From Gelidibacter algens (GTDB taxonomy: Bacteria > Bacteroidota > Bacteroidia > Flavobacteriales > Flavobacteriaceae), in assembly GCF_001678675.1 (NCBI RefSeq), contig NZ_LZRN01000002.1, forward strand, positions 1 through 64,000: a DNA stretch of 64,000 nt, given 5' to 3'. Made by a program: the position numbers and the translations under genes. Positions within the stretch are counted from its first letter, which is position 1. Each line of letters begins with the position of its first letter. Of the stretch, positions 6,650 through 39,740 are shown one piece after another. The notes beneath the pieces were generated by a model. It was not told where the DNA came from, searched no databases, and worked only from the letters and a program-made list of their open reading frames with translations.

Positions 6650-8080
6650 TTATATTTTAAGGAACCATTGATTATCCATATTTTCAGTGAGATGTCTATC
6701 AATTATTATCGAGCTGCCATCTGGTTTGGTGATTTTAATTTGATAAGAACCATAAAACCCTCTAAAGCTTATTTGCCCGTTTTTATCAGCCTTCAGTACT
6801 AGATTTTTTGTCATCCATTCGTCTTTGATGAGTTTGTGTAAACGCGTATAAACTGGTTTTGGATTAAAATCCTTATCAAGTAAGCCACCACCTTTTAACC
6901 AGATCATACGGTCACTTAATCCCCACCAATGTATGGAACCCATAGATGGATACCCAAAGGATAAAATATAGAACTGCTCAGCAAAATCAGCTTGGGCTTC
7001 TTCTGTCCAAAACCCTTCACGCCATCCACCTGTAATGGGAATTCCTGAAGATTGAGGCGTGAATTCGGTTATATGAAGAGGTAATCCAAGTTCATTCATT
7101 CTGTCGTAGGTTTTAATTAATTCCACTGGGGAGAACCACATGTCACGTGGCTCATGTGCCTGAATACCAATGCCATTTATTGGTGTATTCTTTTTTTGGA
7201 GCTCTTTTACGAGTTGGTAGAACTTTTCACGAATATCTGGCTTGGCAATCAAAAAAAACTCATTTAAAATAAAATCCCCATTTTTATCTGCTTCTGCTGC
7301 CCATTTGTATGATTCTTCGATCCATGGAATGGTTTGTTCCAGCGTAATTCCTTCAACATTATATCTTGTCCCGTCATCAATTTTCCCTTCAGTTGTGAGC
7401 GTATCGGCAAGAGCCATCTTCCATGGTATGGTGTTTACGGGCTCGTTTACAACATCCCATATTTTTATTTGGTCTTTAAACCCTCCAACCAGGTTTTGAA
7501 TTCTGGCTTTGTATAAATCATTAGCTAATTCAAAAGGATATTTCATTAACCAGCGAGGAGTTCCTGCCAAATGTGTCCACCCCAAAGTATGGCCTTTGGG
7601 TGTGATATTATTCCTTTTACACCAATCGAGTTTTTGCTGCAATTTTTGCCATTGAGGCATTCCTTGCTTTGGTTCATAAGGCTCCCATTTTACAGTCAAT
7701 TCAGTAAAATTAAATAGACTAATAAATTTTTCCTCAAATTTGGTTGCATCTTCTGGTGTGAGCCTGAATATTTCCTCACATAGATTTCCGAACAGAAAGT
7801 CCTGTGTGATTTGGTTGATTTCAACTCGAATATTTTTAATAGGTTTACCGTGTTCATCTGTAAAAACCAGAGAGGCGTCTCCTTTACGATATTCTTCAAT
7901 ATTTTGACGAGCTTTGGCTAGCAGTTCTTTTTCAATTGAAGTTTTTTCAGCGGTTTGTCCGTTTATTTTTATGATTGAACACAGAAAGATCGATACAAAA
8001 AGTAGAGTACTTTGAAATCGTGATACTGAGGGTTGAATTTCTGAAATAAATTGTTTTAAGTCTTGAAGTATTGTTTTCAT
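6650..8080 (-). CDS. GH10 endo-beta-1,4-xylanase
   Basis: Predicted retaining xylanase that cuts the beta-1,4-xylan backbone. The acid/base is Glu213 in WDVVNEP and the nucleophile Glu339 in HITEFTP. Other GH10 marks are KGHTLGWTH and the late WWGLSD motif. A hydrophobic secretion segment lies at about residues 25-41 after an unusually long N-terminal region, ending near KINGQ. About 70 residues between the signal and the barrel form a small beta-rich domain, and about 60 C-terminal residues follow the barrel. It is the first gene of the minus-strand series, and the divergent region upstream holds the operator pair at 8281-8323, so control by the LacI-type regulator is likely. The gene is the strongest evidence that the locus targets a xylan-type backbone. 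Confidence 0.9.
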   Translation of the reverse strand: MKTILQDLKQFISEIQPSVSRFQSTLLFVSIFLCSIIKINGQTAEKTSIEKELLAKARQNIEEYRKGDASLVFTDEHGKPIKNIRVEINQITQDFLFGNLCEEIFRLTPEDATKFEEKFISLFNFTELTVKWEPYEPKQGMPQWQKLQQKLDWCKRNNITPKGHTLGWTHLAGTPRWLMKYPFELANDLYKARIQNLVGGFKDQIKIWDVVNEPVNTIPWKMALADTLTTEGKIDDGTRYNVEGITLEQTIPWIEESYKWAAEADKNGDFILNEFFLIAKPDIREKFYQLVKELQKKNTPINGIGIQAHEPRDMWFSPVELIKTYDRMNELGLPLHITEFTPQSSGIPITGGWREGFWTEEAQADFAEQFYILSFGYPSMGSIHWWGLSDRMIWLKGGGLLDKDFNPKPVYTRLHKLIKDEWMTKNLVLKADKNGQISFRGFYGSYQIKITKPDGSSIIIDRHLTENMDNQWFLKI

Positions 8081-8280: not shown

Positions 8281-8323
8281 GTGTACGTTAACTTATTTTT
8301 TCAAAAAAAGAGTGTACGTTAAC
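8281..8323. promoter_or_regulatory. Operator pair for LacI-type regulator (sites 1a, 1b)
   Basis: Two perfect copies of GTGTACGTTAAC at 8281-8292 and 8312-8323, 31 bases apart (about three helical turns). The 12-mer is a CG-centred partial palindrome, GTnnACGTnnAC, as expected for LacI-family operators. The pair lies between divergent genes, 200 bases from the GH10 start and 140 bases before the lipoprotein start at 8464, so it could control both directions. The identical motif occurs in the other two regulated regions. Confidence 0.8.
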
Positions 8324-8463
8324 ATAATTAAAATAAAAATACATATTATTATTTAAACGGAATGAAAAATAATGGGTTTTTTATTACGAATATTTAATCC
8401 ACCTAATTATTATTCACTTCTGGCCTTCAAAAATTAATCATTGAAATAAAAAATAAAATTATT

Positions 8464-10110
8464 ATGAAAACAAAAGTTTTGTTATTAAGTATACTCGTGG
8501 TTACAAGCATAATTTATTCTTGCAGTAAAGATGATAGTCCAACAACACCGACGCCAACACCCATAGCTCCTACAATTACTGGGTTTACAATTCCAACTAA
8601 AGTAGTTGGAGATGCTCCTTTTGATTTAACGCCTCCTACAAGCAATAGTTCTGGAGCGTTTACTTATTTAAGTAGCAATACTACTGTAGCAACTATAAGT
8701 GGCAATACACTAACCATTGTTGGTGCAGGAACTACGAATATTAAAGCTAGTCAAGCTGCCAATGGTGATTTTTTAGCGGGAGATATGTCAGCTGATTTAG
8801 TTGTAACTGCTCAAACTACACCCGTTGTAGGTACATTGTATGTTTCTACTACAGGAAACGATTCACATGATGGTTCAAAAAACGCACCTTTTTTAACTAT
8901 TAACAAGGCAGCTCAAGTTGCTGTGGCTGGAGATGTAGTTGTTGTAAAGCCTGGAACCTATAAACCTACTATAAAGATAGCGCCGTTAAATTCCGGAACT
9001 GCTGATAAGCCCATTATTTATCAAGCGGAAGTAAAAGGTGAAGTAATCATTGACGGAAGTGAATCAGCGGATGGTACCAAGGTGGATAGAAGAGGACTTA
9101 TTACCATCGATGGTTTTAGTGCATCAACTCCTAAAAGTTGGATTGTAATAGATGGTTTTACTATTATAAATGCAAAATGGGCGGGTGTAATAGCCATAAA
9201 CAGTAGTAATATTATCATAAAAAATTGCAACACTAAAAATACAGGTTCCTCTGGAATAATTGGTGCTAATTCAACTAACATTACTATTATTAATAATAAA
9301 GTAGAGCAAGCTTGTTCTATTGCGGAAAAAGCACAAAATACGAATGAATGTATTACAGTAGCGTCAGTTGTAGGATTTGAGATTGCTTACAATACGGTAT
9401 CAGATCGTATGGTTGATTTGAATAATGGGGGTGAAGGTATAGATGTTAAAAATGCTTCTGCAAATGGTACGGTGCACCACAACATTGTGACCAATTTGAT
9501 TCGGGTTGCTATATATGTTGATGCTTATCAAAGAGATTTAAATAATATAGATGTCTACGCTAATAAAGTGTATAACACTACTTCAGGTATTACTGTTGCA
9601 AGTGAAGAGGGAGGTGTGGCTTCAAATGTTGAAGTTCATGATAATTTGGTTTATGATATTCAAGGCGTTGGTATTAGACTTGCTGGTTATGTTAATAATG
9701 GGCCTTTAAAAGACATTAGTGTATATCAAAATACAGTGGTGCGTTGTGGTTTAGGTAAAACAGTTTCAGATTGGGAAAATTGTGCATTTATGATAGAAGC
9801 CGATAATGCAAACAATTCAAATTTTATTGTTAGAAATAACATATTTGCAGAATGCAAAAATCAAATAAACTGGAAAAATCAAAGTTACGCCATTATGGAC
9901 AATAATTTAGTGTTTGGCAATTCGACCACGGCAGGTACAAATGCTATTATCACAGATCCACAGTTTGTTAATTCAGCGGGAGCAGATTTTAAATTAAAGG
10001 CTGGCTCCCCTGCTATAAATAAAGCATTAGGAACTCCAATGTCTGCGATTGATTTTAATGACTTTACAAGAGACGCTACACCTGATATTGGAGCTTTTGA
10101 ATATCATTAA
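8464..10110 (+). CDS. Surface lipoprotein with Ig-like domain and right-handed beta-helix
   Basis: Predicted outer-membrane lipoprotein. The lipobox ends at Cys20 (SIIYSC) followed by SKDD, an acidic pattern typical of surface-exported lipoproteins in this phylum. A Thr/Pro linker follows, then a bacterial Ig-like domain (about residues 33-118, ending in TNIKASQAANG), then a DUF1565/pectate-lyase-like right-handed beta-helix (about 122-548, opening LYVSTTGNDSHDG). The Ig-plus-helix architecture mirrors the T9SS protein at 2407-5043. It is the first gene downstream of operator pair 1. It may be a glycan lyase, esterase-like or binding protein; no catalytic residues were recognised. A lyase producing unsaturated uronates seems less likely because no KduI/KduD genes are present. 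Confidence 0.78.
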   Translation: MKTKVLLLSILVVTSIIYSCSKDDSPTTPTPTPIAPTITGFTIPTKVVGDAPFDLTPPTSNSSGAFTYLSSNTTVATISGNTLTIVGAGTTNIKASQAANGDFLAGDMSADLVVTAQTTPVVGTLYVSTTGNDSHDGSKNAPFLTINKAAQVAVAGDVVVVKPGTYKPTIKIAPLNSGTADKPIIYQAEVKGEVIIDGSESADGTKVDRRGLITIDGFSASTPKSWIVIDGFTIINAKWAGVIAINSSNIIIKNCNTKNTGSSGIIGANSTNITIINNKVEQACSIAEKAQNTNECITVASVVGFEIAYNTVSDRMVDLNNGGEGIDVKNASANGTVHHNIVTNLIRVAIYVDAYQRDLNNIDVYANKVYNTTSGITVASEEGGVASNVEVHDNLVYDIQGVGIRLAGYVNNGPLKDISVYQNTVVRCGLGKTVSDWENCAFMIEADNANNSNFIVRNNIFAECKNQINWKNQSYAIMDNNLVFGNSTTAGTNAIITDPQFVNSAGADFKLKAGSPAINKALGTPMSAIDFNDFTRDATPDIGAFEYH

Positions 10111-10494
10111 TAAAATTGATTAAACAGCACTATTTATAATCCCAAATGTTTTTTTTGGTTATGAATTATCTATTAGAATTGATCGAAATAATACTTTAAG
10201 AATCTTGTTTACGACATTTCAGAACATAGACAATACATTTTGTAGCAAAAACAATTAAAATGAAAAAATATTCATTACAGTTTCTTTCGGGGTCTTTATG
10301 ATTTGTTGTATACCTCCTAAATTGTCAGCTCATGATAATTTGAAAACTGAAATAATAACTAAAACGGCTGAAAAACTTATTAATAAAATCCGTGGTGGCT
10401 AGTCTGGAATGACGATTAGAAATTTACTAATCAGCAAGCAAGAAAGAACTCTAAAACTTTATATTAATTAGAAGTGCTAATAATATTCTTATAG
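10111..10494 (+). other. Intergenic region holding a degraded gene stub
   Basis: 384 bases between the beta-helix lipoprotein and the GH127-like gene. It contains the broken reading frame at 10260-10402, described separately. No operator copy was seen. The unusual length compared with the 20-base gap to the following GH3 gene fits a deleted gene. Confidence 0.45.
10260..10402 (+). pseudogene. Remnant of a secreted protein (signal peptide stub)
   Basis: ATG followed by MKKYSLQFLSG then a stop, but adding one base in the GGGG run joins it to a second frame (VFMICCIPPKLSAHDN) to give an almost normal signal peptide and about 20 further residues ending LINKIRGG and a stop. A start codon, Lys-Lys, hydrophobic core and polar segment are thus all present but the protein ends after about 47 residues. 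This looks like the 5' end of a secreted enzyme whose body has been deleted. The parent gene cannot be identified from so short a piece. Confidence 0.45.
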
Positions 10495-13065
10495 ATGATG
10501 AAAAAAATAATATTTATTTTACTTTTTACATTAATTGGAGTACCTAATACTTACTCACAAGAATTAATTATTGACGGAAACTGGAAATATATAACGAAAG
10601 AAGATAATGCAGAATTCAGCAAAAAAGATTTTAATGATTCTGGCTGGGCTGAACTTGATAAATTAGAATGGCAAGATGATATCCATACAACGGCTGTTAG
10701 ATTGCTTTGGCTTCGTAAAAAGGTATTCATCCCAGTAAGCCTAAAGTCAGCGTCCGAAAAAACAGGTTCAATGAGTCTTTCGGTGGGCAAAATTCGTCAA
10801 ACCGACGAAACCTATTTAAATGGTAAGTTGATTGGTGAAAATACTTCAGGAGACACCAATAGAAATTATTTAATTGATACTGAAGATATATTATGGGATC
10901 AGGAAAATACGATAGCCATTAGAGCTACACATTGGGGGCATTTTTCTATCTCTATGGTACCACAATTCAAGTCCGCGAACCCTGATCTGTTTTTCAAATA
11001 TAATGCAGGTCTGAAAAAGGGAAACGAAAAAGACCTCGTAATAAATAAAGACTTGATTTATCAATTTACCATTACCAATGTTTCAACAAGAAAACTAAAT
11101 GGAAGTGTTGTAGCAGACTTTTATAATTTCAACGGAGAAAAAGTTAATTCAGATAAAAAGGAAGTCAACTTGGAATTTGGAGCAACTACTGTTGATTTCC
11201 ACTATAAAGCTGCTTCACCATTAATAAAAGTAACTTACACCTTAATTGTAAACGATTTTCAATATTCAGATAGTTGGAACGCCGTTTATGGCTATGAGAA
11301 TATAGCTTATAAAAAAGCAACCCCAATAATAACCTATAAGGTTGATGAAAAATTTCAAAATCCGGATGTAGATAGAACAGTCATTGATGGTTGGCTAGGG
11401 GAAAAGTTGGATATTAATACCCAACAAAGACTTTACAAAGTTGATGAAGATGTGTTATTAGCAGGATTTATTAATCGTCCAGGCGTGCATTCATGGATTG
11501 GGGAGCATGTTGGTAAATTCTTAGAAGCCGCTTGTAATACCTATGCAAATAAAGGTGATGCGGCACTAAAAGAACAAATTGATAGAAGTGCACAGCAACT
11601 TATAGCGGCCCAGTTAAAAGACGGGTATTTAGGAACTTATGATGCAGACAGTCATTGGACAAGTTGGGATGTGTGGTCGCATAAATATGATATGGTAGGA
11701 TTATTAAGATACTATGAATTATCTGGCTTTAAACCAGCATTGACTGCTTGCGAAAAAATTGGTGATTTACTATTTGAAAAATTCGGTGACTCCGTTGGTC
11801 AAAAAGATATAATAAAAGCTGGTGCACATGTTGGAATGGCAGCTGCAAGTGTTATAGACCCCATGACCGACTTATACCGTTTCACAGGAAACAAAAAATA
11901 TTTGGATTTTTGTTACTATGTTATCAAAAGCTATGACAATCCAAAAGGACCTCGCATTATTACCGATATTGATTCTTTAAAAAGATTGGATAAAGTAGCA
12001 AATGGCAAAGCTTATGAAATGTTGTCAAATATCGTTGGAATTTCAAAACTATATCGAATTACAAATGATGAAAATTTTTTAAAACCTGTATTGTTAGCGT
12101 GGAATGACATTGTTTCTAAACGTTTATATGTTACAGGAACAACAAGTTCCATGGAGCATTTTCAGGATGACCATGTATTGCCAGCAGAAAATGATGCGCA
12201 TATGGGAGAAGGGTGTGTTACTACAACTTGGGTTCAACTTAATTATCAATTGTTTAGTATTTCGGGAGATATGAAATATTTAGATGAATTAGAACGCTCG
12301 GTTTACAATCATTTAATTGGTGCTGAAGACCCACAGACAGGAGGTGTAAGTTATTATACCCCACTTATGGGAGTTAAGGAATACGGTACAAATATAACCT
12401 GTTGCATGTCTAGTATTCCGAGGGGTATAGCTATGGTTCCGATGTTTTCAAACGGTAAAATTAATCAGACTCCAACATTTTTATTTTATGAACCAGGAGT
12501 TTATAAAACTAAACTGAATACAAAAGATCAAACGGAAGTTGAGTTTGTAACTCATACAAACTTTCCATCAGATGGGAAGGTTTCAATTTCAGTAAATCCA
12601 TCAAAGACATCAAAATTTCAGATTCTATTCCGTAAACCATATTGGACAGAAAACTTTACGATTAAAGTAAACAATAAAACCCAAAAAGCTGGTCAGCAAT
12701 TAATTGAGGTTGACAGAACGTGGAAAAAAGGCGATAAAATTGAAATTAGTTTTTCTATTCCGCTTAAAATATTAGATGGCGGTAAAAGTTACCCAAATAG
12801 CATTGGCATTCAAAAAGGACCACAAGTACTGGTGTTTGACCAAAAGTTAAATAAAGTAAAAGCTGAAGATGTTTATTTAAATGAAAATGCCATTTTTTTG
12901 GAACAGGTGCCAAACAGCATATTGCCAGAAAATTGGTCAGGAAATCAGGTTTATACTTTAAATGCAGAAGTAAATGGGCGTACAGAAAAAATCTATCTCG
13001 TACCGTTTGCCGATGCAGGTCAAACTAATGGAATGATCACAACATGGAATAAAAAAGGAAAGTAA
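10495..13065 (+). CDS. Secreted GH127/DUF1680-type glycoside hydrolase
   Basis: Predicted hydrolase of the beta-L-arabinofuranosidase superfamily. Signal peptide about residues 1-21 (VPNTYSQ). An N-terminal GH2-like sugar-binding beta-sandwich (about 25-270) precedes an (alpha/alpha)6 barrel (about 285-700) and C-terminal beta domains. The zinc/cysteine site known from GH127 appears to be kept: Glu572-x-Cys574 in MGEGCV and the pair Cys636-Cys637 in ITCCMSS. In GH127 one of the paired cysteines is the nucleophile. It is 20 bases upstream of the GH3 gene and probably co-transcribed with it from the 8281 promoter region or a nearer one. Family assignment is good at superfamily level; the exact GH family and whether the substrate is an arabinofuranoside is inferred. 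Confidence 0.78.
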   Translation: MMKKIIFILLFTLIGVPNTYSQELIIDGNWKYITKEDNAEFSKKDFNDSGWAELDKLEWQDDIHTTAVRLLWLRKKVFIPVSLKSASEKTGSMSLSVGKIRQTDETYLNGKLIGENTSGDTNRNYLIDTEDILWDQENTIAIRATHWGHFSISMVPQFKSANPDLFFKYNAGLKKGNEKDLVINKDLIYQFTITNVSTRKLNGSVVADFYNFNGEKVNSDKKEVNLEFGATTVDFHYKAASPLIKVTYTLIVNDFQYSDSWNAVYGYENIAYKKATPIITYKVDEKFQNPDVDRTVIDGWLGEKLDINTQQRLYKVDEDVLLAGFINRPGVHSWIGEHVGKFLEAACNTYANKGDAALKEQIDRSAQQLIAAQLKDGYLGTYDADSHWTSWDVWSHKYDMVGLLRYYELSGFKPALTACEKIGDLLFEKFGDSVGQKDIIKAGAHVGMAAASVIDPMTDLYRFTGNKKYLDFCYYVIKSYDNPKGPRIITDIDSLKRLDKVANGKAYEMLSNIVGISKLYRITNDENFLKPVLLAWNDIVSKRLYVTGTTSSMEHFQDDHVLPAENDAHMGEGCVTTTWVQLNYQLFSISGDMKYLDELERSVYNHLIGAEDPQTGGVSYYTPLMGVKEYGTNITCCMSSIPRGIAMVPMFSNGKINQTPTFLFYEPGVYKTKLNTKDQTEVEFVTHTNFPSDGKVSISVNPSKTSKFQILFRKPYWTENFTIKVNNKTQKAGQQLIEVDRTWKKGDKIEISFSIPLKILDGGKSYPNSIGIQKGPQVLVFDQKLNKVKAEDVYLNENAIFLEQVPNSILPENWSGNQVYTLNAEVNGRTEKIYLVPFADAGQTNGMITTWNKKGK

Positions 13066-13084
13066 ATAACACAAAAAAATCATT

Positions 13085-15325
13085 ATGAATAATAAAAAGG
13101 TCTGGGTAATTTTGCTGGTAATTATAGCAACAACACAAATAATAGTTGCCCAAAACAGTGATAATGCAAAAAACAAGATAGAGTTGCTTTTAAAGAAAAT
13201 GACTTTGGAGGAAAAGGTAGGTCAATTAAATTTGGCTACTTATGTAAATGAGAACAATACAACAAATTCTTTTAATGAAAGCATCAAGAACGGAGAAATA
13301 GGAGGGATCCTTAAAAGCAATGGAGCCAAGACAAATTATGAATTGCAAAAAATGGCTGTTGAACAAAGCCGTTTGGGAATCCCTATATTATTTCAAGAAG
13401 ATGTGATACATGGTTATAGAACCATATTCCCTACGCCATTAGGGGAATCGGCCAGTTGGAATTTAGAGAATATTGAAAAATCAGCTAGTATAGCTGCAAA
13501 AGAAGCAGCAGCGGGTGGAATCCATCTCACCTATGCGCCTATGGTTGATATCACAAACGACCCACGATGGGGACGCATAGTCGAGGGCGCAGGGGAAGAC
13601 CCCTATTACGGTAGTTTGGTTTCAGCAGCCAGGGTCAAAGGTTTTCAAGGAAAGGATTTGACCAGCGGAGAAAGTGTGATGGCATGTGTTAAACATTTTG
13701 CGGGTTATGGTGCAGTTCTAGCAGGCAGGGATTATAATATTTCAGATTTTTCAGAAAGAACCTTAAGGGAGATTTATCTTCCCCCATTTAAAGCTGCCAT
13801 TGATGCAGGTGTAGGAAGTGTAATGACTGCCTATTCAACGTTTGACGGAATTCCTGCCACGGCCAACCAAAAACTGCTTAAAACTATTTTAAGAGAAGAG
13901 TTAGGTTTTAAAGGCATGTTAATTACAGATTGGTCAACAATTAATAATCTTGTTAAGATTGGGGTAGCTGCAGACCAAAAAGAAGCTGTTCTCATGGCCA
14001 TTGACGCAGGTGTTGATGTTGATATGACCAGTGGTTTATATTTAAAATATTTAAAAGTATTGGTTGAGGAAGGCAAAGTTAATGTTTCGGTAATTGATCA
14101 AGCCGTAAGAAGGGTGCTGCATGCCAAACAGCAATTAGGTTTGTTTGATAATCCCTATAAATTTTTTGATGTGGATAGGGAAAAGGAAACTTTACTTAAT
14201 CCAAAACATTTGGAATTTGCACGAAAGTCAGCAAGAGAAAGCATGGTTTTATTAAAGAATAACAATAGTATATTACCGCTTAATTCCAATGTTAAAAAGA
14301 TTGCAGTAATTGGACCAATGGCTACACGTAAAAAAGATATGTTTTCATGGTGGGGTGGAGATTATTCCCAAGGAAAACCTGAAGATGTCGTTTCGCTTTT
14401 AGAAGGCTTAAAGAAAACAGCGAGTCCTAATGTTACCATTGAATATGCCGAAGGCATAAAGCTGGATGGATTTGAGCCTAAAGGATTAGAATTAATTCCA
14501 GAGGCGGTAGCATTAGCATCCCAATCAGATTTAGTTATTTTAGCTTTAGGAGAAGAGTATTGGATGAGTGGCGAAGCAGGAAGTATTTCGAATATTAATT
14601 TACCAGGAGCTCAAGAAGAATTGGTTAAAGCAATATCTAAAACGGGTAAACCTATCGTTACTGTATTATTTAATGGCCGTCCTTTTGATTTGCAACTTGT
14701 AGAAAAACACTCTGAAGCCATATTAGAGGCTTGGTTTCCTGGAACTATGGCAGGTTTGGCTGTTTCAGATGTGCTTTGGGGAGCCTATAATCCTTCTGGA
14801 AAATTAACGATTTCCTTTCCAAGAAACACTGGTCAAATCCCAATATTTTACAATTATAAAAGAACTTCGCACGATATTAATGAAGGTGTCAAACCTTCTC
14901 GATGGACTAATATGTATTTAGATATTCCTACAACGCCTTTATACCCTTTTGGATATGGTTTGAGTTATACAAAATTTGAATATTCAAACATGGAATTATC
15001 AACCAATGCGATAAACAAAGAGGACAGTATCCAAATAACTGTTGAGGTATCGAATACAGGAAAAGTGTTTGGTGAGGAAGTTGTGCAATTGTACGTTGGC
15101 GATGATGTTTCATCTATCTCAAGACCACTAAAAGAACTTAAAGGCTTTAAAAAAATAGGATTGAACCCAGGTGAGAAGCAGAAGATTAGTTTTACTTTAA
15201 ATCCCACAGATTTCTCATTTTATAATAAGGATATGCAATGGGTTCTTGAATCAGGATCCTTTACAATTATGATAGGGGCCTCTTCTCAGGATATAAAATT
15301 TTCTAAAAAATTGGCTGTTCACTAA
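13085..15325 (+). CDS. Secreted GH3 beta-glycosidase (BglX-like)
   Basis: Predicted periplasmic exo-acting retaining beta-glucosidase/xylosidase. Signal peptide about residues 1-23 (ends IIVAQ). An N-terminal GH3 barrel carries RWGR (WGRIVEGAGEDP), KHF and the nucleophile Asp282 in LITDWST. An alpha/beta sandwich domain with the usual LLKNNN and VIGPMA motifs follows, then a C-terminal fibronectin-III-like domain ending near residue 746. The length is normal for BglX-type enzymes. It is the last gene before the LacI regulator, and a strong hairpin lies downstream between the convergent genes. It is one of three GH3 enzymes here; the other two are lipoproteins, so this one is the only soluble periplasmic member. 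Confidence 0.88.
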   Translation: MNNKKVWVILLVIIATTQIIVAQNSDNAKNKIELLLKKMTLEEKVGQLNLATYVNENNTTNSFNESIKNGEIGGILKSNGAKTNYELQKMAVEQSRLGIPILFQEDVIHGYRTIFPTPLGESASWNLENIEKSASIAAKEAAAGGIHLTYAPMVDITNDPRWGRIVEGAGEDPYYGSLVSAARVKGFQGKDLTSGESVMACVKHFAGYGAVLAGRDYNISDFSERTLREIYLPPFKAAIDAGVGSVMTAYSTFDGIPATANQKLLKTILREELGFKGMLITDWSTINNLVKIGVAADQKEAVLMAIDAGVDVDMTSGLYLKYLKVLVEEGKVNVSVIDQAVRRVLHAKQQLGLFDNPYKFFDVDREKETLLNPKHLEFARKSARESMVLLKNNNSILPLNSNVKKIAVIGPMATRKKDMFSWWGGDYSQGKPEDVVSLLEGLKKTASPNVTIEYAEGIKLDGFEPKGLELIPEAVALASQSDLVILALGEEYWMSGEAGSISNINLPGAQEELVKAISKTGKPIVTVLFNGRPFDLQLVEKHSEAILEAWFPGTMAGLAVSDVLWGAYNPSGKLTISFPRNTGQIPIFYNYKRTSHDINEGVKPSRWTNMYLDIPTTPLYPFGYGLSYTKFEYSNMELSTNAINKEDSIQITVEVSNTGKVFGEEVVQLYVGDDVSSISRPLKELKGFKKIGLNPGEKQKISFTLNPTDFSFYNKDMQWVLESGSFTIMIGASSQDIKFSKKLAVH

Positions 15326-15420
15326 AAAGTGAAACTAGGGAAGGGAGGCTTAGTTTTAGATAACAAATAGTTTACTAAACAACAGCTATTCAATACCATG
15401 TATAATCAATATCAAATATA

Positions 15421-15454
15421 AATCCTTTTACAAACTCAGGTTTGCAAAAGGATT
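15421..15454. terminator. Bidirectional terminator between GH3 and lacI genes
   Basis: Arms 15421-15435 and 15440-15454 form a 15-bp stem with one mismatch and the loop TCAG. A/T runs inside the stem ends supply a short U-tract for either strand. It is placed between two convergent genes, as expected for a shared terminator. Confidence 0.75.
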
Positions 15455-15474
15455 TAATATTTGTCTGTCTATGA

Positions 15475-16528
15475 TTAAATGCTATCGTCGTAATACATTA
15501 ATTTTTCCGTACAAACAATATCCAAAGGAATATCAATAATTGCTGGAGGGGTTTCATTCATAACTAAATATCGGTATAGAAGTTCTATGCCTTGATAGGT
15601 TTGTTGGGAGGGTTGTTGATTGATTAAAAAATCAATAACTCCCTCATTTATGAGATCTTTGTTTTTTTGTAAAAGATCATAGCCAACAATTTTAATATTC
15701 TTGTTTTCTGTAAGAACTTCAGCAATCATGTAGGATTTTGAATTTGCCACAAAAATCCCATCTATTTCTGGTATAGAATCAATTTTGATTTTAATTTTTT
15801 TGATTAGGCGGGGGTCTTCTTCCGTAATTGTAAAAGTATCAACGACAATATCATTATTTTTTTTTTCGTCCGAGGAAAGCTTTAAAACCTTCTATACGCT
15901 TGAGAACACGATAGTTTGGGTTTTCTGCTTTTAAGATATTAATGATTAAATATTTTGTACCATTGTTATTACCGTATTGTAACAATTGAGCTGCTACCCG
16001 TCCACCTTGGTAAGAGTTTTGTCCAATATTTAGGATAGCTTCCGTTTTGTTTTCGTAAGAACCAATTAATACAAAAGGTATTTGTTTAGCCTTGCATTCA
16101 TTTATAAAAGATGCAGATTCAGTAGGCATGACATCAGGGAAAAGAAGAGCAGCATCATTTTCTTCTAATAAAACTTTCTTACAAACTTTATTAAATGAGT
16201 TACTCTTATTCAAGTCATATAAATACACATTTATTTTTATGCCCAAAGATTTAAAATCATTCATGGCTTTTTTAACCCCTTGAAACGGATAGTGCCAAAA
16301 CTCACCTTCCTTGTGTTGAGGTAGTAGTACAGCGATATTAAAAGTTTTATTTAAAACCAAATTCCGTGCATAGGTATTTGGAACATAATCTATTTTTTGC
16401 ATGATGCTCTCAACAAGCTGTCTTGTATTTGCGGCGACATAACCTCTATTGTGTAAAACTCTATCAACTGTACCAATTGAAACGTTAGCCAATTCGGCAA
16501 TCTTTCTTATAGTTGGTTTTGAATTCAT
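15475..16528 (-). pseudogene. LacI-family transcriptional regulator, frameshifted at A10 tract
   Basis: Likely repressor of the surrounding genes. The N-terminal LacI helix-turn-helix is clear (IRKIAELANVSIGTVDRVLH) with the hinge region near NTYARNLVL, and a periplasmic-binding-protein-like sensor domain follows. The first frame (15854-16528) ends at residue 224 in GRKKK and a stop. Removing one base of the ten-T run at 15857-15866 (A10 on the coding strand) joins it to the second frame and gives a 350-residue protein, the normal size for the family. The break is thus a single homopolymer indel. It may be a sequencing error, a fresh mutation, or a slipped-strand switch. It sits divergent from the gene at 16840, with two operators between them, so autoregulation is likely. 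The sugar effector cannot be told from sequence. Confidence 0.82.
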
Positions 16529-16640
16529 GGTTATAAACTTATTGCCTATTTTATGTTTGTAAATATATTCGGTTTTGTGAAAATTAACAGAATATTTTTG
16601 TTAAAATAAAAATTTATTTAGGTTAGTTCGAGTAATATGT

Positions 16641-16648
16641 TATATTTG
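16641..16648 (+). promoter_or_regulatory. Candidate -7 promoter element (TATATTTG)
   Basis: Perfect match to the Bacteroidota -7 consensus TAnnTTTG, placed 14 bases before the first operator of the pair. Transcription would start near 16655 and run into both operators, which fits repression by blocking initiation or elongation. A clear -33 TTG was not found. Confidence 0.4.
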
Positions 16649-16661
16649 TGTTAATTAAAAA

Positions 16662-16728
16662 GTGTACGTTAACAATATGCGTAAAATAACAAAGCATTTT
16701 TTTTTACTTAAATTAAGTGTACGTTAAC
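16662..16728. promoter_or_regulatory. Operator pair for LacI-type regulator (sites 2a, 2b)
   Basis: Two perfect copies of GTGTACGTTAAC at 16662-16673 and 16717-16728, 55 bases apart. They lie in the divergent region between the lacI gene (start 16528) and the T9SS protein gene (start 16840). The location next to the regulator gene supports this motif being the regulator's own binding site. Confidence 0.82.
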
Positions 16729-16839
16729 ATGATTGTATTGAATCCTCTGGAGATGGCACAGTTTTAAGCTTTTATTCACAATAGTTTTATTGTTATTTAT
16801 TTTTCAAGTTGAATATTAATCCTTCTAAATCCATAAACT

Positions 16840-18174
16840 ATGAAAAAATTCTTTACCCTTTTATTATTTTTTAGTGCTGTTGTCATGCATTCACAAGATT
16901 ATACAAATGGAAACTTAATAGTTTCTTACAATGTTGATACTAATAACTCTGGAGCGTACAGGAATTTGAGCTTACAAGAATATACCACTGGAACAACAGG
17001 AGTAATTAACAGCGCCACAGCAGTAGGTGCTGCAATAATTACTGGACGTATGGTTGATGATCGTAAAGCTGCTTATGAAGGTCAGATTAATACTTCAGAA
17101 GTCGGGAATTACATTGTGTTAACAGGACGTAACACTCTTGATGGTACGTCTGCAGGTACGGCACGTGCAGCGGCTCTTTCGCTTGTGCGTATTTCTAAAA
17201 ATAAGACTATTGAATATTCTGATTTTCTACCTGCCGATGCTGCTTTTAATGGCGGAAGTGGTCGTTCAGTAGCTTCTGTTGATGGTACTACTTTTTTTAT
17301 TGCTACTGCTGCTTCCAGTGCTGATGCTGGGGTGAGGCTGGCTACTTTTGGTAGTACATCAAATACTTCTTATTTCCCTGAAGGGGCTCGTTCTGTAGGT
17401 ATTTGGAATAATGAGGTAGTTGCAACGGGTGGTAATGATCCTTCTACTTACATTAGTGGTGTAGCATCAACTCCTACTACTGCGCCAACTTCAACTGCTT
17501 TTACAGGATCTGCCGCTCCTAATAATTATTGCGGTCTTGTACTATTCGATGTCGACGCAGTGGAACCTGGTAATGATTTGATGTACGTTGCTCAAAGATT
17601 TAGTGGAATAGATAAATATTATAAAAGCTCAGGTGTATGGACTTATGTTAGTACAACAAGTACTGCTGATGATTATATTGGCGGCTTTACTGGTTTTCAA
17701 GCAATGACAGGAAGAATAGAAGGGGATAAGCCGGTTCTTTATGTAATTAAAATTGATGAATCATCTCCAAAGGCTAAAAGTACATTGTATCAAACAATTG
17801 ATAATACGCCTAGAACAGGAGACTGGACTTCTGGTGGAGCAGCTAATCCGACATATACTGTAATTGCGACTTCTGATGCTGGTACCAATCAAACTTTCAG
17901 AGGGGTGACTTTTGCGCCTTCATCTACAACATTATCAACTAGGGATTTCAGTCAAGATGCTAAAGGATTATTAGTGTATCCTTCTCCAGATAAGAGTTCG
18001 GTTGTAATATCTAATAATAATAGGTCAGTATCTGTAATTGTTTTCAATGCTATAGGTCAAAAAGTATTGAGTGGTGCGTCAGATGGGGATCTTATTTTAA
18101 ATATTAGTTATTTAAAATCAGGAATTTATATTGTTCGCACTTCTAATGGAGAAACAGCTCGTTTTGTGAAGTAG
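16840..18174 (+). CDS. Orphan T9SS-secreted protein of unknown function
   Basis: I do not recognise the main domain. A signal peptide covers about residues 1-19 (VVMHSQ). The body (about 20-365) is rich in Thr, Ser, Gly and short beta-strand-like segments, with repeated patterns of the type hydrophobic-x-G-x-N/D that would fit a beta-propeller-like fold. A T9SS type A sorting domain closes the protein (about 373-444; LLVYPSPDKS and a final RFVK). It has its own operator pair upstream and a strong terminator downstream, so it is a single-gene unit under the LacI-type regulator, placed between the regulator and susC. That position suggests a secreted glycan-binding or glycan-cleaving role tied to the same substrate. 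The function is inferred from context only. Confidence 0.7.
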   Translation: MKKFFTLLLFFSAVVMHSQDYTNGNLIVSYNVDTNNSGAYRNLSLQEYTTGTTGVINSATAVGAAIITGRMVDDRKAAYEGQINTSEVGNYIVLTGRNTLDGTSAGTARAAALSLVRISKNKTIEYSDFLPADAAFNGGSGRSVASVDGTTFFIATAASSADAGVRLATFGSTSNTSYFPEGARSVGIWNNEVVATGGNDPSTYISGVASTPTTAPTSTAFTGSAAPNNYCGLVLFDVDAVEPGNDLMYVAQRFSGIDKYYKSSGVWTYVSTTSTADDYIGGFTGFQAMTGRIEGDKPVLYVIKIDESSPKAKSTLYQTIDNTPRTGDWTSGGAANPTYTVIATSDAGTNQTFRGVTFAPSSTTLSTRDFSQDAKGLLVYPSPDKSSVVISNNNRSVSVIVFNAIGQKVLSGASDGDLILNISYLKSGIYIVRTSNGETARFVK

Positions 18175-18201
18175 TTGTTGTTTCAACACTATAATTTTCA
18201 A

Positions 18202-18237
18202 TTCCTTGCTAGAAGTGTATACGCTTCAAGCAAGGAA
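18202..18237 (+). terminator. Terminator after the orphan T9SS gene
   Basis: Nine-bp perfect stem TTCCTTGCT (18202-18210) with AGCAAGGAA (18229-18237), plus an inner GAAG/CTTC pairing, followed by AAATTTT. It lies 27 bases after the stop codon and separates this gene from susC. Confidence 0.75.
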
Positions 18238-18348
18238 AATTTTAGAATTCCGAAACCACAAAATGACTAATAATAAATTAAAGACACAATTAATATTTAA
18301 ATTGAATCAATAAAATTTGGTAATTTATTTAATTATCATTTAATTCGT

Positions 18349-18404
18349 GTGTACGTTAACGCAAAAGAGATTAGTGTATTTTACTCAAATAAGTGTACGT
18401 AAAC
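18349..18404. promoter_or_regulatory. Operator pair for LacI-type regulator (sites 3a, 3b)
   Basis: A perfect GTGTACGTTAAC at 18349-18360 and a one-mismatch copy GTGTACGTAAAC at 18393-18404, 44 bases apart, the second ending 50 bases before the susC start codon. This ties the SusC/SusD transporter to the same regulator as operator pairs 1 and 2. Confidence 0.8.
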
Positions 18405-23461: not shown

Positions 23462-25129
23462 ATGTCAACCCTTCAAACTCTAGATTATGTTTCAATCGGT
23501 ATTTATCTTCTGCTCATGGCTGGGGTTGGTATATTTTTCTCATGGTTTATAAAAGATATTAAAAGCTATTTCACCGGTGGTAATACCATCCCTTGGGGTA
23601 TTTCGGCGATTAGCAATTTTATGGGGTCATTAAGTACTTTTGTGTTTGTTGCTTATGCAGGGATTGCTTATAAAGATGGCTTAATAGGTGTGGTCGTTCT
23701 GTGGTGCACCATAATACCCTTTATTTTTGCAGCACTATTTATTGGAAAGCGCTGGGTACGCTCAAGAATTATGACCCCCATCGAATATTTAGAAATACGG
23801 TTCAATAGCAATATTAAGCAGTTATTTGGTTGGATGGGCCTTGGTATGAGGTTTCTAGATAACATGGTGAGACAGTATGCTATGGGTATTTTTTTGGTTA
23901 CAGCAACAGATCTAAGTTTTTTTGAAGCTATTATATGGTCTGGAGTTATAACCACACTTTTCACAGTTATTGGTGGTGTATGGGCAGTTGTAGTTATGGA
24001 CACTTTGCAGTTTATTATTTTAATTTTTGTATCAGTGTTATTAGTGCCACTTTCTCTGGAGGCTACAGGAGGGTTAAGTGCATTAATGACCAAACTTCCA
24101 GAACATTTTCAATGGTTTTCGGGAGCAAAAAGTCAACCTCTGTGGTTAATGGTTTATTATTTAATGATACTTTTTAAGTATAATGGTAACTGGGTTTTTA
24201 TACAGCGCTTTTATAGTGTTAAGGATGAGAAGGCGGCTAAGAAGCTTGGATATTGTACCGCCTTACTTTTATTTGTTTTCCCAATTATCTTTTTACTTCC
24301 AGCTATTGCCGCTGCGGATATACTTCCAAATTTAGCTAATCCTGAGCAAGCTTATGTAGCTGTAGCTGTTAAACTATTGCCTGCTGGTTTATTGGGCTTA
24401 ATGATTGCCGCTATGTTTTCTGCAACAATGTCTTCTTTAAATTCAGAGTTTAATGTGATGTCAGCTGTTCTTACAAATGACATTTATAAGAAATTAATAA
24501 ACCCTAATGCATCCGATAAAAAACTGATTTTTGTTGCAAGGTTAAACATTATTTTAGTTGGGATTGTGGTTGTTATAGGCTCATTATATATGGGGAGATT
24601 AGGCGGTGCTTTTGAAGCCAATAAAATATTAACAGGGCTCTTTGCCATCCCTTTAGCCATTCCATTAGTTTTAGGGTTAATGTTTAAAAAGACTAATTCT
24701 GTAGGAGTTTTCTTTACTGTAGTTGTCGGTATTTTAACAGGTCTTATTTTTATTTCTTCTACTAGTGTATCATGGGAAATGGGCACATTAATTCAAATTG
24801 TTAGTTGTATCTCTTCATTCTTTTTGGCAAGTTATATTTTCAGATCAAAAGATGAGTACAAAAAACGAGTTGACACTTTCTTTACTAAAATAAATACACC
24901 GCTTCAAAAAAGTGAGATTAGTGATGGTGATCCAAAATTCAAATTAGCACTTTCAAATTTGTTCGCCATTGTTATAGCAGCGTCTGGAATTTTATTTTGT
25001 GCTATGAGTATCCCAACATTGTCCCAAAGTAGTGGGAAAATATCTTTTTACTTAGGAAGTGCATGTGTTGTTTTATCCATAATTATTAAGCTGGTTTTTA
25101 CTGGAACTCTAAAATTTAAAAAGAACTAA
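23462..25129 (+). CDS. SSS-family sodium/solute symporter (likely hexuronate uptake)
   Basis: Inner-membrane sodium-coupled sugar transporter with about 13-14 hydrophobic helices. The early segment KSYFTGGNTIPWGISAIS and the mid-protein MFSATMSSLNSEFNVMS are typical of the sodium:solute symporter family. It is the first gene of the catabolic run and ends 3 bases before uxaC, so the two are probably translationally coupled. That position suggests uptake of glucuronate or small acidic oligosaccharides from the periplasm. It differs clearly from the second SSS transporter of the galactose operon. The family is certain; the substrate is inferred from the neighbours. Confidence 0.85.
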   Translation: MSTLQTLDYVSIGIYLLLMAGVGIFFSWFIKDIKSYFTGGNTIPWGISAISNFMGSLSTFVFVAYAGIAYKDGLIGVVVLWCTIIPFIFAALFIGKRWVRSRIMTPIEYLEIRFNSNIKQLFGWMGLGMRFLDNMVRQYAMGIFLVTATDLSFFEAIIWSGVITTLFTVIGGVWAVVVMDTLQFIILIFVSVLLVPLSLEATGGLSALMTKLPEHFQWFSGAKSQPLWLMVYYLMILFKYNGNWVFIQRFYSVKDEKAAKKLGYCTALLLFVFPIIFLLPAIAAADILPNLANPEQAYVAVAVKLLPAGLLGLMIAAMFSATMSSLNSEFNVMSAVLTNDIYKKLINPNASDKKLIFVARLNIILVGIVVVIGSLYMGRLGGAFEANKILTGLFAIPLAIPLVLGLMFKKTNSVGVFFTVVVGILTGLIFISSTSVSWEMGTLIQIVSCISSFFLASYIFRSKDEYKKRVDTFFTKINTPLQKSEISDGDPKFKLALSNLFAIVIAASGILFCAMSIPTLSQSSGKISFYLGSACVVLSIIIKLVFTGTLKFKKN

Positions 25130-25132
25130 GAA

Positions 25133-26548
25133 ATGAATTTAAATAAAAATTTTATACATGATAATTTTCTTTTGGATAATGGGATGTCTCAATCATTATT
25201 TCATGAGGTAGCTAAAAAACTTCCAGTTGTAGATTTTCATAATCATATCAATCCACAACATTTAGCATCGGATAAAATGTATAACAATATTGCTGAACTC
25301 TGGGTTAATGAAGATCCATATAAACATCGTGCCATGAGAATTAATGGTCTGTTTGAAAACACCATTACGGGTAAAGAAACTAGTGATAAGGATAAGTTTA
25401 ATGCTTGGGCACAAACATTACCAAAAACTATGGGAAACCCATTATTCCATTGGTCGTGTATAGAACTAAAACGAGTTTTTGAAATTGATGAATTGTTGAC
25501 ACCATTAAGCGCTGAACGTATTTGGAATACCTGTAACATTAAACTTAAAGATAAATCATTTTCAGCCAACCATATTATGAAACGCTGGAATGTAGATGCT
25601 ATTTGTACATCTGATAGTTTTTTTGATGATTTATCGGTGCATAAACAAGCCTCCTTAAAAAGCGGATTTATAGTTTTACCCTCTTTAAGAGCAGATGAGG
25701 CCCTCGATATAGATAATTGGAAATCTTCGAAGTTTTTAGTTCAATTATCGCAATCAAATAAAAAGGAAATTAATACACTTGAAGACTTAAAATCTGCCTT
25801 ACATGATAGATTAGAGTATTTTGATAAGCATGGCTGTAAATTATCTGACCATGCCTTAAATTCAGGGTTTACTTTCCAAGAATGTCCAGATGAAAAAGCA
25901 GCTTCAATATTTAAAAATATAATTGCCAATAAATCAATTACAGCTACTGAAACTGTTCAATTTCAATCTCATTTATTAGGCTTTTTAGGGAAGAGCTATA
26001 GCAATTTTGGTTGGACAATGCAATTGCACATTGGTGCACATAGAGAAACCAGTTGTCGTTTACGACGTTTAGCGGGACCCGCAGGAGGCTTTGCAACTAT
26101 TGGTAAAACAGCAAACATTAAAAGTCTCTGTAGTTTTTTGAATACGCTTGAAAAAAGTTCACTACTGCCCAATGTGATTATTTTCACTTTAAATCCCTCT
26201 GATAATGAGGCGCTAGCGACCTTGACAGGCTCATTTGCGGAAGATGGTATACCAGGAAAAGTACAATTTGGACCTGCGTGGTGGTACAATGATCATTTAA
26301 CAGGCATACAAGATCAATTAATGGCTGTTTCCAATTATAGCTTATTGAGCAGGTTTGTTGGTATGACAACAGATTCTAGAAGTATAATGTCTTTCTCAAG
26401 GCATGAATATTTTAGAAGAATCCTCTGTAATCTGATAGGTAACTGGGTAGAAAAGGGGCTGATACCAATGAATGAGGAAATTTTACATGAATTAATAACC
26501 GATATATCTTATACAAACAGCAAAAAAATAATTTTAAATGAAAAATAG
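25133..26548 (+). CDS. uxaC: Uronate isomerase (glucuronate isomerase)
   Basis: Cytoplasmic amidohydrolase-superfamily enzyme that converts D-glucuronate to D-fructuronate. The metal-binding motif VVDFHNHINP stands near residue 35, and family marks include GWTMQLHIGAHR and FGPAWWYNDHL. The 471-residue length is normal. The stop codon overlaps the start of the oxidoreductase gene by 11 bases, showing tight coupling. UxaC also acts on galacturonate, but the partners here belong to the mannonate branch, so glucuronate is the likely substrate. Confidence 0.92.
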   Translation: MNLNKNFIHDNFLLDNGMSQSLFHEVAKKLPVVDFHNHINPQHLASDKMYNNIAELWVNEDPYKHRAMRINGLFENTITGKETSDKDKFNAWAQTLPKTMGNPLFHWSCIELKRVFEIDELLTPLSAERIWNTCNIKLKDKSFSANHIMKRWNVDAICTSDSFFDDLSVHKQASLKSGFIVLPSLRADEALDIDNWKSSKFLVQLSQSNKKEINTLEDLKSALHDRLEYFDKHGCKLSDHALNSGFTFQECPDEKAASIFKNIIANKSITATETVQFQSHLLGFLGKSYSNFGWTMQLHIGAHRETSCRLRRLAGPAGGFATIGKTANIKSLCSFLNTLEKSSLLPNVIIFTLNPSDNEALATLTGSFAEDGIPGKVQFGPAWWYNDHLTGIQDQLMAVSNYSLLSRFVGMTTDSRSIMSFSRHEYFRRILCNLIGNWVEKGLIPMNEEILHELITDISYTNSKKIILNEK

Positions 26549-27380
26549 CACAGTACAAAAAATAGCAGTAGTTACAGGGGCAGGAGGAACATTATGCTCT
26601 GAGATGGCCAAAGATCTTGCTAAGCAAGGCTATAAAGTTGCTTTATTAGGCAGGAGTTTAGATAAGCTTAAAATTGTTGAAGAAGAAATTAAATCTATGG
26701 GACAAGTAGCTATATCTGTTAGCACAGATGTATCTGATGAAGCTTCGGTAATAAATGCTCATGCTATTATTTTAAAAGAACTTGGAAGTTGTACTGTATT
26801 AATTAATGGTGCAGGTGGTAACCAGATGGAAGCCTTAACTAACATTACAGAATTTGATGATAGAGAATTAGATGGAGATGAAGCCATAAAGGGATTCTTT
26901 AATTTAAACATGGATGTTTTTAAAAGTGTTATCAATGTAAACACCATGGGGACAGTAATTCCTTCTTTTGTTTTTGGTAAGGATATGGCAAAACAAAAGC
27001 ATGGGAGTATCATTAATATCGCTTCTATGAATAGTTTTAGACCACTTTCAAAAGTTGGTGCTTACGGAATGGCCAAAGCAGGCATAGCAAATTTCACTCA
27101 ATGGCTTGCTGCGTATTTAGCACCAGCAGGGGTACGCGTAAACGCTATTGCTCCTGGTTTTTTCTTGAATGACAGAAGCATAAAAATAATGTTTGATGAA
27201 AATGGAAATAAAACGGATCGTGCTATTAATGTACTTGGGCATACACCTATGAATCGTTTTGGGGAAGCTAAAGAACTTATTGGATGTATGAACTGGCTCA
27301 TTGATGAAAATACAGCAGGTTTCGTAACAGGAATAGTAGTTCCAATAGATGGCGGTTTTTTAGCAAGTTCTGGAGTTTAA
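26538..27380 (+). CDS. SDR-family D-mannonate oxidoreductase
   Basis: Predicted NAD(P)-dependent reduction of D-fructuronate to D-mannonate, the second step of glucuronate breakdown. It is a short-chain dehydrogenase: the Rossmann motif appears as VTGAGGTLCSE at the N-terminus, the NAG-like motif as INGAGGN, and the catalytic Ser-Tyr-Lys set as IASMNSF and YGMAKAG. The 280-residue length fits the SDR form rather than the longer UxuB polyol-dehydrogenase form. The gene overlaps uxaC by 11 bases and lies in the same run as uxuA, which supports the role. Enzymes of this type are often annotated as mannonate oxidoreductase; the substrate is inferred from context. Confidence 0.82.
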   Translation: MKNSTVQKIAVVTGAGGTLCSEMAKDLAKQGYKVALLGRSLDKLKIVEEEIKSMGQVAISVSTDVSDEASVINAHAIILKELGSCTVLINGAGGNQMEALTNITEFDDRELDGDEAIKGFFNLNMDVFKSVINVNTMGTVIPSFVFGKDMAKQKHGSIINIASMNSFRPLSKVGAYGMAKAGIANFTQWLAAYLAPAGVRVNAIAPGFFLNDRSIKIMFDENGNKTDRAINVLGHTPMNRFGEAKELIGCMNWLIDENTAGFVTGIVVPIDGGFLASSGV

Positions 27381-27493
27381 TATGAATATCAGATCATGAA
27401 ACAGAAACTTTTAATGCTATAGTTATATTTTCTATCATAGAATTATTGGGCATTAGCATTCTGGTAATGTATTCTAATTTATTACAAAAAATT

Positions 27494-28969: not shown

Positions 28970-28996
28970 TAAATAATAATTTAAATCATAATAATC

Positions 28997-29740
28997 ATGA
29001 GCGTAGATCAATACAAAAAAGAGGTAAGTATGATGAAGTTGGACAAACTTACTGAAATGAGAGAAGGGGTTTCAACAAAAAAATTTCCAGTTTCAGATAA
29101 AGAAATTTTAGAACGTTATGAGCAATTATATACTGGGGCAATCAATGATGTGCTTAGGGAGTTTTGTTTATTAAACCAAGCATTGCCTAATCATATAATT
29201 CCATTAAGAGAATATACTACCGTTGCAGGCTTTGCTTTTACAGTAAAAAGTTCACCTAATACCAAAGTAAGTGGAGAAATGGAATATCGTTCTCAAATGC
29301 TGGATGAAATGCATGAAAATGCTTTTGTAGTTTGGGACACCAGTAATGATGAGCAATCAACAGCTTGGGGCGGCGTCATGACTGCCACTGCGAAAGGAAA
29401 AAAAATCAAGGCTGCTTGTTTAGATGGTGGGATTAGAGACACGCATCAAATTTTAGAAGCCGATTTTCCAGTGTTTTACAAGTATCGCCATTCTAATGGG
29501 AGTTTAGGACGTTGTTTAATAACACATTATCAAATAGCTCTTCAAATTGGAACTGTTGTAATTAAGCCTGGAGATATTGTTTTAGGAGATGTTGATGGTG
29601 TTTTGGTAGTGCCAAGAGATATTGCCTATGAAGTATTAGTGCGTGCTGAAGAAATTAAAGAAAATGAAAAGAAAATATTTGGTTGGGTTAAGGAAGGTCA
29701 AAGTGTAAAAGACATAACTGACAAAGGAGGTTATTTTTAA
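28997..29740 (+). CDS. RraA-like / HMG-CHA aldolase family protein
   Basis: Member of the RraA fold family, which includes regulators of RNase E and class II pyruvate aldolases such as 4-hydroxy-4-methyl-2-oxoglutarate aldolase. The metal-binding motif is seen as LDGGIRDTHQ, and PGDIVLGDVDGVLVVP is the usual late block. The 247-residue length is longer than plain RraA. It lies between the GH39-like gene and uxuA within the uronate run, so an enzymatic role on a 2-oxo acid is more likely than RNA regulation. The actual reaction is unknown. It could act on a side product of sugar-acid breakdown together with the FAD-dependent dehydrogenase at 31775. Confidence 0.7.
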   Translation: MSVDQYKKEVSMMKLDKLTEMREGVSTKKFPVSDKEILERYEQLYTGAINDVLREFCLLNQALPNHIIPLREYTTVAGFAFTVKSSPNTKVSGEMEYRSQMLDEMHENAFVVWDTSNDEQSTAWGGVMTATAKGKKIKAACLDGGIRDTHQILEADFPVFYKYRHSNGSLGRCLITHYQIALQIGTVVIKPGDIVLGDVDGVLVVPRDIAYEVLVRAEEIKENEKKIFGWVKEGQSVKDITDKGGYF

Positions 29741-29835
29741 TATGAAATCGCCATTAACAACAAGTTTGCGCAAGCAAAGCCATTGAAGATAAGGCGATAC
29801 CATATGACCTTAAAAAAACAAATAATTATCTACAT

Positions 29836-30812: not shown

Positions 30813-30848
30813 CCTTTCCGTAGATGGCTTTTTTTGATAAAAATTAAG

Positions 30849-31670: not shown

Positions 31671-31699
31671 TGTCTTATGACATCTGAAAATTCACTTAC

Positions 31700-31765
31700 A
31701 TGAAAATCCTGAAAGTTAGTTTGATAGCAGTGGTCGTGTTTAGTTTTAGTACTATAAATAAATAA
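31700..31765 (+). pseudogene. Signal-peptide stub of a lost secreted protein
   Basis: A 21-codon frame, MKILKVSLIAVVVFSFSTIN-K, has the Lys-rich start and hydrophobic core of a signal peptide but stops at once. It fills the gap between the esterase and the FAD-dependent dehydrogenase genes. It may be the leftover of a deleted secreted enzyme. A small functional membrane peptide cannot be excluded. Confidence 0.35.
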
Positions 31766-31774
31766 TACCTACAA

Positions 31775-34600: not shown

Positions 34601-34708
34601 AATAAAATGACTTTACTTTCTGAGGGGATTAATACAGATAAAATAGGTGTTGATTATCATTAAATACAAAAAATAGTAAGCATAATTAAAATAAAAACAT
34701 TAATAACG

Positions 34709-37315: not shown

Positions 37316-37349
37316 GGCTATAGTTTAAAGTGTTAACAGCTAAATTTTT

Positions 37350-39678: not shown

Positions 39679-39740
39679 CGAATAAATGAGAATTTAAAAT
39701 TATTTCAAGAATAAACTAAAAAAATAAATAATAATAAAAA

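Follow-up and report, generated by a model that had tools for sequence, protein, structure and literature searches.

Several LacI-family regulators of uronate catabolism have been described in Bacteroidota. Ravcheev and co-workers predicted KdgR, UxaR, UxuR, and UxmR for Bacteroides (PMC3878776), and a 2014 paper places UxaR, UxuR, and KdgR on one branch (PMC4052901). According to the same 2014 paper, about 20% of the operons controlled by LacI-family transcription factors (LacI-TFs) have more than one site, and tandem sites show spacing peaks at 13, 22, and 32 bp, of which the 22- and 32-bp peaks were read as cooperative binding (PMC4052901). For LacI proteins of the TVSR type, a recognition code has been reported in which the residues equivalent to LacI 17, 18, and 22 set the outer bases of the operator (PMC2978694). 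LacI regulators have already been reported in xylan loci (PMC5306329, PMC12125979), and so the kind of system treated here is known. The gene cluster description for alginate use in Flavobacterium UMI-01 names no characterized regulator (PMC5334617), and literature searches, 12-mer strings included, found no published description of an operator for the group of LacI proteins that read TVDR.

The locus considered here lies in a 64-kb window of the Gelidibacter algens genome, the window being the whole stretch of DNA that was analyzed. In some Bacteroidota polysaccharide loci, this one among them, neither a hybrid two-component nor an ECF regulator is seen, which leaves their control without a prediction. 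Of the 46 open reading frames (ORFs) of at least 100 amino acids, 39 were scanned with Pfam, the other seven overlapping scanned ones; in agreement with the original prediction, this found no hybrid two-component or ECF/anti-sigma system in the window, which starts at base 1 of the contig and thus has the contig edge as its left end.

A motif search located GTGTACGTTAAC exactly at positions 8281, 8312, 16662, 16717, and 18349 and located GTGTACGTAAAC, one change away from it, once at 18393, all six sites being on the + strand. These candidate operators form three pairs. Operators 1a (8281..8292) and 1b (8312..8323, 31 bp past 1a) lie in the intergenic region between the GH10 and beta-helix genes (8081-8463), operators 2a (16662..16673) and 2b (16717..16728, 55 bp past 2a) lie between lacI and the gene for a T9SS protein (16529-16839), and operators 3a (18349..18360) and 3b (18393..18404, the GTGTACGTAAAC copy, 44 bp past 3a) lie between the T9SS-protein gene and susC (18175-18454). 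This is the arrangement that had been predicted: five exact copies and one single-mismatch copy, always paired, between genes in these three regions only, and spaced 31, 55, and 44 bp from start to start. The likeness to LacI-family operators that had been proposed for the motif also holds, as evidenced by its CG center and by the symmetric form found in the loci of relatives; a CG-centered GTnnACGTnnAC pair sits in the lacI intergenic region, as expected of LacI/GalR operators. The window site itself is asymmetric, with a strong half, GTGTAC, and a degenerate half (GTTAAC or GTTTAC).

The exact 12-mer was absent from 100 dinucleotide shuffles of the window (mean 0, maximum 0). When two mismatches are allowed, the window holds seven matches, including an extra 2-mismatch match at 35470 within a GH3 gene, and this count was reached in 5/100 shuffles, so within the window only the exact form is striking. 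The whole draft genome (4,506,948 bases in 140 contigs) holds the exact 12-mer at the five window places alone. Allowing one mismatch raises the number of places to 15, of which 9 are outside the window, and the palindromic relaxation GTKWRCGYWMAC occurs at nine places genome-wide, six of which are the window sites.

The genes around the sites suggest a uronate/xylan locus. To the left, a four-gene minus-strand set (169-8080) encodes Melibiase/GH31-like, T9SS beta-helix, GH39-like, and GH10 proteins, with the GH10 gene first (6650..8080; 128 bits for GH10; best PDB match, a beta-xylanase). To the right of pair 1, on the + strand, a beta-helix protein (8464..10110), whose best PDB match, 3vst "Xylosidase," covers 77 residues (126-202) only, is followed by Pfam-assigned GH127 (10495-13065) and GH3 (13085-15325) genes; a terminator-like hairpin of 17 pairs (15419..15456, minus strand) lies between the convergent GH3 and lacI genes. 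The T9SS-secreted protein (16840..18174, + strand) is recognized by its sorting tail alone, and no orthologue besides its own was found in 148 relatives at an E value of ≤1e-30. After its gene comes an inverted repeat with 18-nt arms (18202..18237), possibly a terminator that sets susC apart. Terminator and sigma-70 scans of the region gave overall counts at chance level, and no tandem repeats were found. Behind operator pair 3 are susC (18449-21484) and susD (21541-23241), both on the + strand and assigned by Pfam; a run of nine G at 19447-19455, unusual at 35.5% GC, lies inside the open susC frame. A co-directional + strand run (23462..41481) then encodes an SSF transporter, UxaC, an SDR, a GH39-like protein, an RraA-like protein, UxuA, a SASA esterase, an FAD/FeS oxidase, two GH3 enzymes, a PfkB kinase, and KDPG aldolase. 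These genes presumably share a transcription unit with susCD, since the gaps do not exceed about 220 bp. Further along, 41926-52141 is a separate sugar cluster (MFS, isomerase-like, FGGY kinase, epimerase, GalK, GalT, and SSF genes) with its own GntR/Peripla_BP_3 regulator.

Hexuronate catabolism is thus linked to the lacI cluster, which encodes UxaC (553 bits) and UxuA (239 bits, both by Pfam) together with an SDR, the PfkB kinase, and KDPG aldolase. This set, which we take to be the route from glucuronate to KDPG cleavage, looks complete if the SDR serves as the reductase step. The original prediction had called the substrate glucuronoxylan, and the GH10 and xylosidase-like enzymes and the glucuronate route fit that name, but no match to a GH67 or GH115 alpha-glucuronidase was found in the whole draft genome at an E value of ≤0.001, a search in which positive controls were detected. 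The glucuronic acid side chain would therefore be removed otherwise, or the substrate would be a different uronate-bearing, xylose-containing polymer.

The first piece of lacI (15854..16528, minus strand, 224 amino acids) encodes a LacI helix-turn-helix (HTH; PF00356, 55.3 bits against a cut-off of 27) and 148 of the 258 positions of Peripla_BP_4. The frame is then lost where the coding strand has ten consecutive A (15857..15866, minus strand), the window's longest homopolymer. The remaining ligand-binding domain (P0001; 15476..15849, minus strand) continues in another frame for 124 residues with no stop, and it shares 30% identity across 117 positions with the corresponding C-terminal portion of a homologue in another genome (G037). 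Since the frame is split, the second part of the ligand-binding domain is missing from the product that this sequence encodes. This detail modifies the predicted LacI-controlled glucuronoxylan regulon: the assignment to LacI stands, as evidenced by recurrence of the site near homologues, but the split had been missed. The recognition helix reads SIGTVDRVLH, which puts the protein in a Bacteroidota subgroup of LacI that reads TVDR in place of TVSR, and its residues 17, 18, and 22 in LacI numbering are I, G, and R. Eight PF00356 hits exist in the genome, the window lacI included. Six others (L033-L038) have TVSK or AVSK helices and a partial hit (L039) is unalignable, leaving the window lacI as the only TVDR type among alignable hits. 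Near two of these paralogues are CGAAAACGTTTTCG palindromes (L036, 1311; L037, 1866), likely an operator of a different class for those proteins.

Related sites lie near many relatives of the window LacI. A protein search of 148 relatives at an E value of ≤1e-40 gave one match besides its own, G037, in which a perfect palindrome, GTGTGTACGTACACAC, lies between lacI and the adjoining gene. Eight genomes of the same genus have no LacI match at that cut-off and no 12-mer pair, with single copies of the 12-mer in two; the cut-off is strict and also missed a homologue in G057. A phylum sample of 394 genomes yielded 20 further genomes at an E value of ≤1e-35, and their lacI regions of about 15 to 20 kb were fetched. 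In 8/12 genomes of a Flavobacterium-like genus (g116; the label comes from near-identical helices in named Flavobacterium loci), GTGT(A/G)CG(C/T)ACAC lies between lacI and an operon with genes for KDPG aldolase, SDR, or UxuA. Genome-wide, all copies are at the lacI locus in 8 of these 12 genomes, while 3 have none and 1 has a copy elsewhere. In some other genomes the palindrome is found 5' of susC or transporter genes. Five fetched lacI regions (L066, L076, L078, L079, and L080) have no site at ≤1 mismatch, and L069 has a single such match, inside a gene. Across 21 of 23 genomes, the palindrome GTGTRCGYACAC has 18 copies genome-wide, 13 of them in the lacI regions of about 20 kb; outside these regions there are two copies in G306 and one each in G395, G298, and G057.

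All 12 g116 lacI genes (L063, L064, L065, L066, L067, L069, L071, L072, L073, L075, L076, and L078) lack an in-frame ATG, GTG, or TTG just ahead of the HTH. They share a conserved 5' stretch, ATC/ATT-ATA-AC(A/G), which suggests that these repressors may use a conserved AUA or AUC/AUU start codon; G037 has TTG at the same codon.

A second set consisted of the best 80 of at least 580 relatives in titled Bacteroidota records, chosen by LacI similarity and not by motif; it came from an alignment-based scan, a single-protein scan of contigs having given nothing. In these 80 loci GTGTRCGYACAC has 39 matches, 37 of them intergenic and spread over 27/80 loci, with intergenic sequence making up 131 of 912 kb, and 11 control half-sites with the same core gave three matches in all. 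The other 53/80 of these best 80 loci have no perfect intergenic palindrome. In raw counts, uncorrected for background, 24/80 loci have uronate genes (KDPG aldolase, KdgK, UxaC, or UxuA), 24/80 have susC or susD, and 46/80 have one or the other kind. As a separate observation, a contig from a metagenome-assembled genome (L085) encodes at 1556-2599 a KdgK homologue 88% identical to the window kinase, and its lacI is only about 40% identical to that of the window, possibly reflecting transfer of a uronate module.

The search of relatives found 13 copies of the exact 12-mer in 10 other genomes, not above a reversed control; eight of the copies fall within ORFs and a ninth at the end of one, and G057 alone has a pair. 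There, an inverted pair, 22 bp from start to start, precedes susCD, and a TVDR lacI follows directly after these genes. The exact 12-mer also clusters with TVDR lacI genes in L068, L151, L163, and the motif-picked L060, alongside susC, an SSF transporter, or kdgK. For instance, G410 (L068) has GTGTACGTACAC, GTGTACGTAAAC, and GTGTACGTTAAC between an SSF transporter gene and susC about 5 kb from lacI; in Pedobacter sp. N36a (L163), the exact 12-mer directly follows lacI and one GTGTACGTAAAC precedes susC; and Cytophagales bacterium Alg240-R148 (L151, Val-Gly) has the exact 12-mer between kdgK and lacI.

Within the 80-locus set, site type varies with residue 18. Loci with Gly-18 have GTGTnCGnACAC in 38/61 and GGGnnCGnnCCC in 1/61, whereas loci with Ala-18 have them in 2/19 and 8/19, respectively (Fisher P values of 1.3e-4 and 2.0e-5, which ignore kinship). 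With 22 loci from the genome search added, the counts for GTGTnCGnACAC and GGGnnCGnnCCC become 51/81 and 1/81 for Gly and 2/21 and 9/21 for Ala. On the tree, Ala/Gly changes five times with two independent pairs on supported branches; the association is clustered and rests on so few independent pairs that a phylogeny-corrected test has no power. Asymmetric GTGTACGTTAAC/GTGTACGTAAAC sites are intergenic in 3/17 Ile-Gly loci versus 1/63 other Gly loci (P = 0.029, with the motif-picked L060 left out), and one more Ile-Gly locus, L100, has an asymmetric site that the filter missed. As an Ile-Gly protein, the window LacI has a site in keeping with its class. Separately, GGGTACGTACCC or GGGCACGTGCCC is present at the Ala-18 TVDR loci L070, L107, L110, L148, L152, L116, and L144, besides GTGT-type sites in L107 and instead of them in the others.

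Pairing had been taken to suggest cooperative binding or looping, and the relatives support this in part. Their pairs within 150 bp (≤1 mismatch) have spacings of 21 (four), 22, 31 (five), and 32 (three) bp, with further pairs at 35, 55, 68, 78, 89, 113, 114, 116, and 122 bp. The 31-bp pair of the window matches the 21- and 31- to 32-bp spacings, but its 55- and 44-bp pairs miss a whole number of 10.5-bp turns by 2.5 and 2.0 bp. Among relatives, helical phasing gave R = 0.61 over 17 pairs of ≤80 bp, many of them from related Hymenobacter and so not independent. Bacteroidota promoters follow a -33/-7 pattern, and the top-scoring + strand elements of this kind lie 11 to 13 bases before the first operator at two of the three sites (tied at one). 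Promoter placement by these elements was dropped; equal scores are common in shuffles, and so they do not fix operator position relative to the start site.

We consider it likely from sequence comparison that the six sites are operators of the adjacent LacI-family protein, acting as a repressor of the uronate/xylan locus; the broader proposition, that they serve a LacI of the type encoded next to them, is very probably correct. The positions of the sites, their uniqueness in the genome, and their recurrence near homologues are observed, whereas binding, repression, ligand, and operon extent are inferred. A LacI dimer is predicted to bind the CG-centered 12-bp site through its strong GTGTAC half and its degenerate half. 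When sugar is absent, repressor on the pairs would block three + strand units, namely, the beta-helix/GH127/GH3 genes, the T9SS gene, and the long unit from susCD to KDPG aldolase; these intergenic regions might also govern the divergent GH10 genes and lacI itself. The inducer would likely be a hexuronate or a breakdown intermediate, because homologues are often near uronate genes, and its binding would release the repressor.

The broken frame complicates this explanation. The one assembly leaves three readings of the repressor at the A run: a recent break, an error in the sequence, or dependence on slippage. A sequencing or assembly error at this homopolymer, with the repressor whole and ordinary, is a proposition that we regard as evenly balanced: the break falls at the longest homopolymer of the window, the genome is a 140-contig draft, and all 102 homologues are whole (336 to 364 amino acids from HTH to stop in 102/102), with no homopolymer longer than nine in any of their genes. 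However, an unsystematic look noticed no other broken frame in the window, and no second assembly was found. Those homologue lengths, set against the 224 amino acids of the first piece, also suit true inactivation of lacI at the A run, which would make the operators relics and leave the locus uncontrolled or under another regulator. Moreover, listed window ORFs contain 47 other runs of 7 to 9 bases without losing their frame, and another two runs, of 7, are at ORF ends. We find inactivation doubtful, though it deserves serious weight, as five of six operator copies are still identical, the C-terminal frame has no stop, and the break is known from one assembly; with operators identical and that frame open, any loss of lacI would be recent. 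It is unlikely, though conceivable, that the ten-A run is a switch in which length changes or transcriptional slippage turn the only repressor of the whole utilization locus on or off in a subset of cells; if so, some cells would express the 40-kb locus ahead of any substrate signal.

Two further alternatives concern the sites themselves. A different transcription factor might bind the 12-mer, especially as the lacI product may be nonfunctional, but this is improbable given that, across Bacteroidota, sites of this type accompany TVDR lacI genes and that the aligned LacI paralogues of the genome differ in helix, two of them having their own palindromes nearby. The motif could also be chance or repeat-type sequence unrelated to regulation, being just 12 bp long and no commoner as single copies in other genomes than its reversed control. 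We give that idea almost no credence: five exact copies stand against none in shuffles and none elsewhere in 4.5 Mb, and the site type recurs near lacI across the phylum.

Control by the adjacent LacI-family protein, the explanation that we favor, matters beyond this locus. Tying GTGTRCGYACAC and its relatives to TVDR LacI proteins would give loci of this kind a testable regulator, site, and probable ligand class, and with at least 580 relatives, the rule could extend far past the G. algens genome. The split in the repressor is a lesser matter that would be cheap to decide.

Compared with known systems, the window combines familiar elements. Like the operators described for LacI-TFs, its sites are of even length with a central CG, and the 31-bp spacing of pair 1 is near the reported 32-bp peak, whereas 55 and 44 bp are off the peaks (PMC4052901). 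The TVSR code pairs Arg22 with an outer G, and the same combination is found in the window, although that code is confined to TVSR proteins and the window protein is TVDR (PMC2978694). As in the window, the xylan loci described for Gramella flava contain lacI, GH10, and susCD; they also contain GH67, with xylose genes downstream, whereas the window has uronate genes and no GH67 or GH115 (PMC5306329). The Bacteroides regulators KdgR, UxaR, UxuR, and UxmR, likened here by description, are likewise LacI-family proteins of Bacteroidota devoted to uronate catabolism, and some extracellular or periplasmic proteins are stated to fall under KdgR and UxmR (PMC3878776). Relative to these hexuronate regulators, the window locus adds susCD and xylanase-type genes, and its sites are paired.
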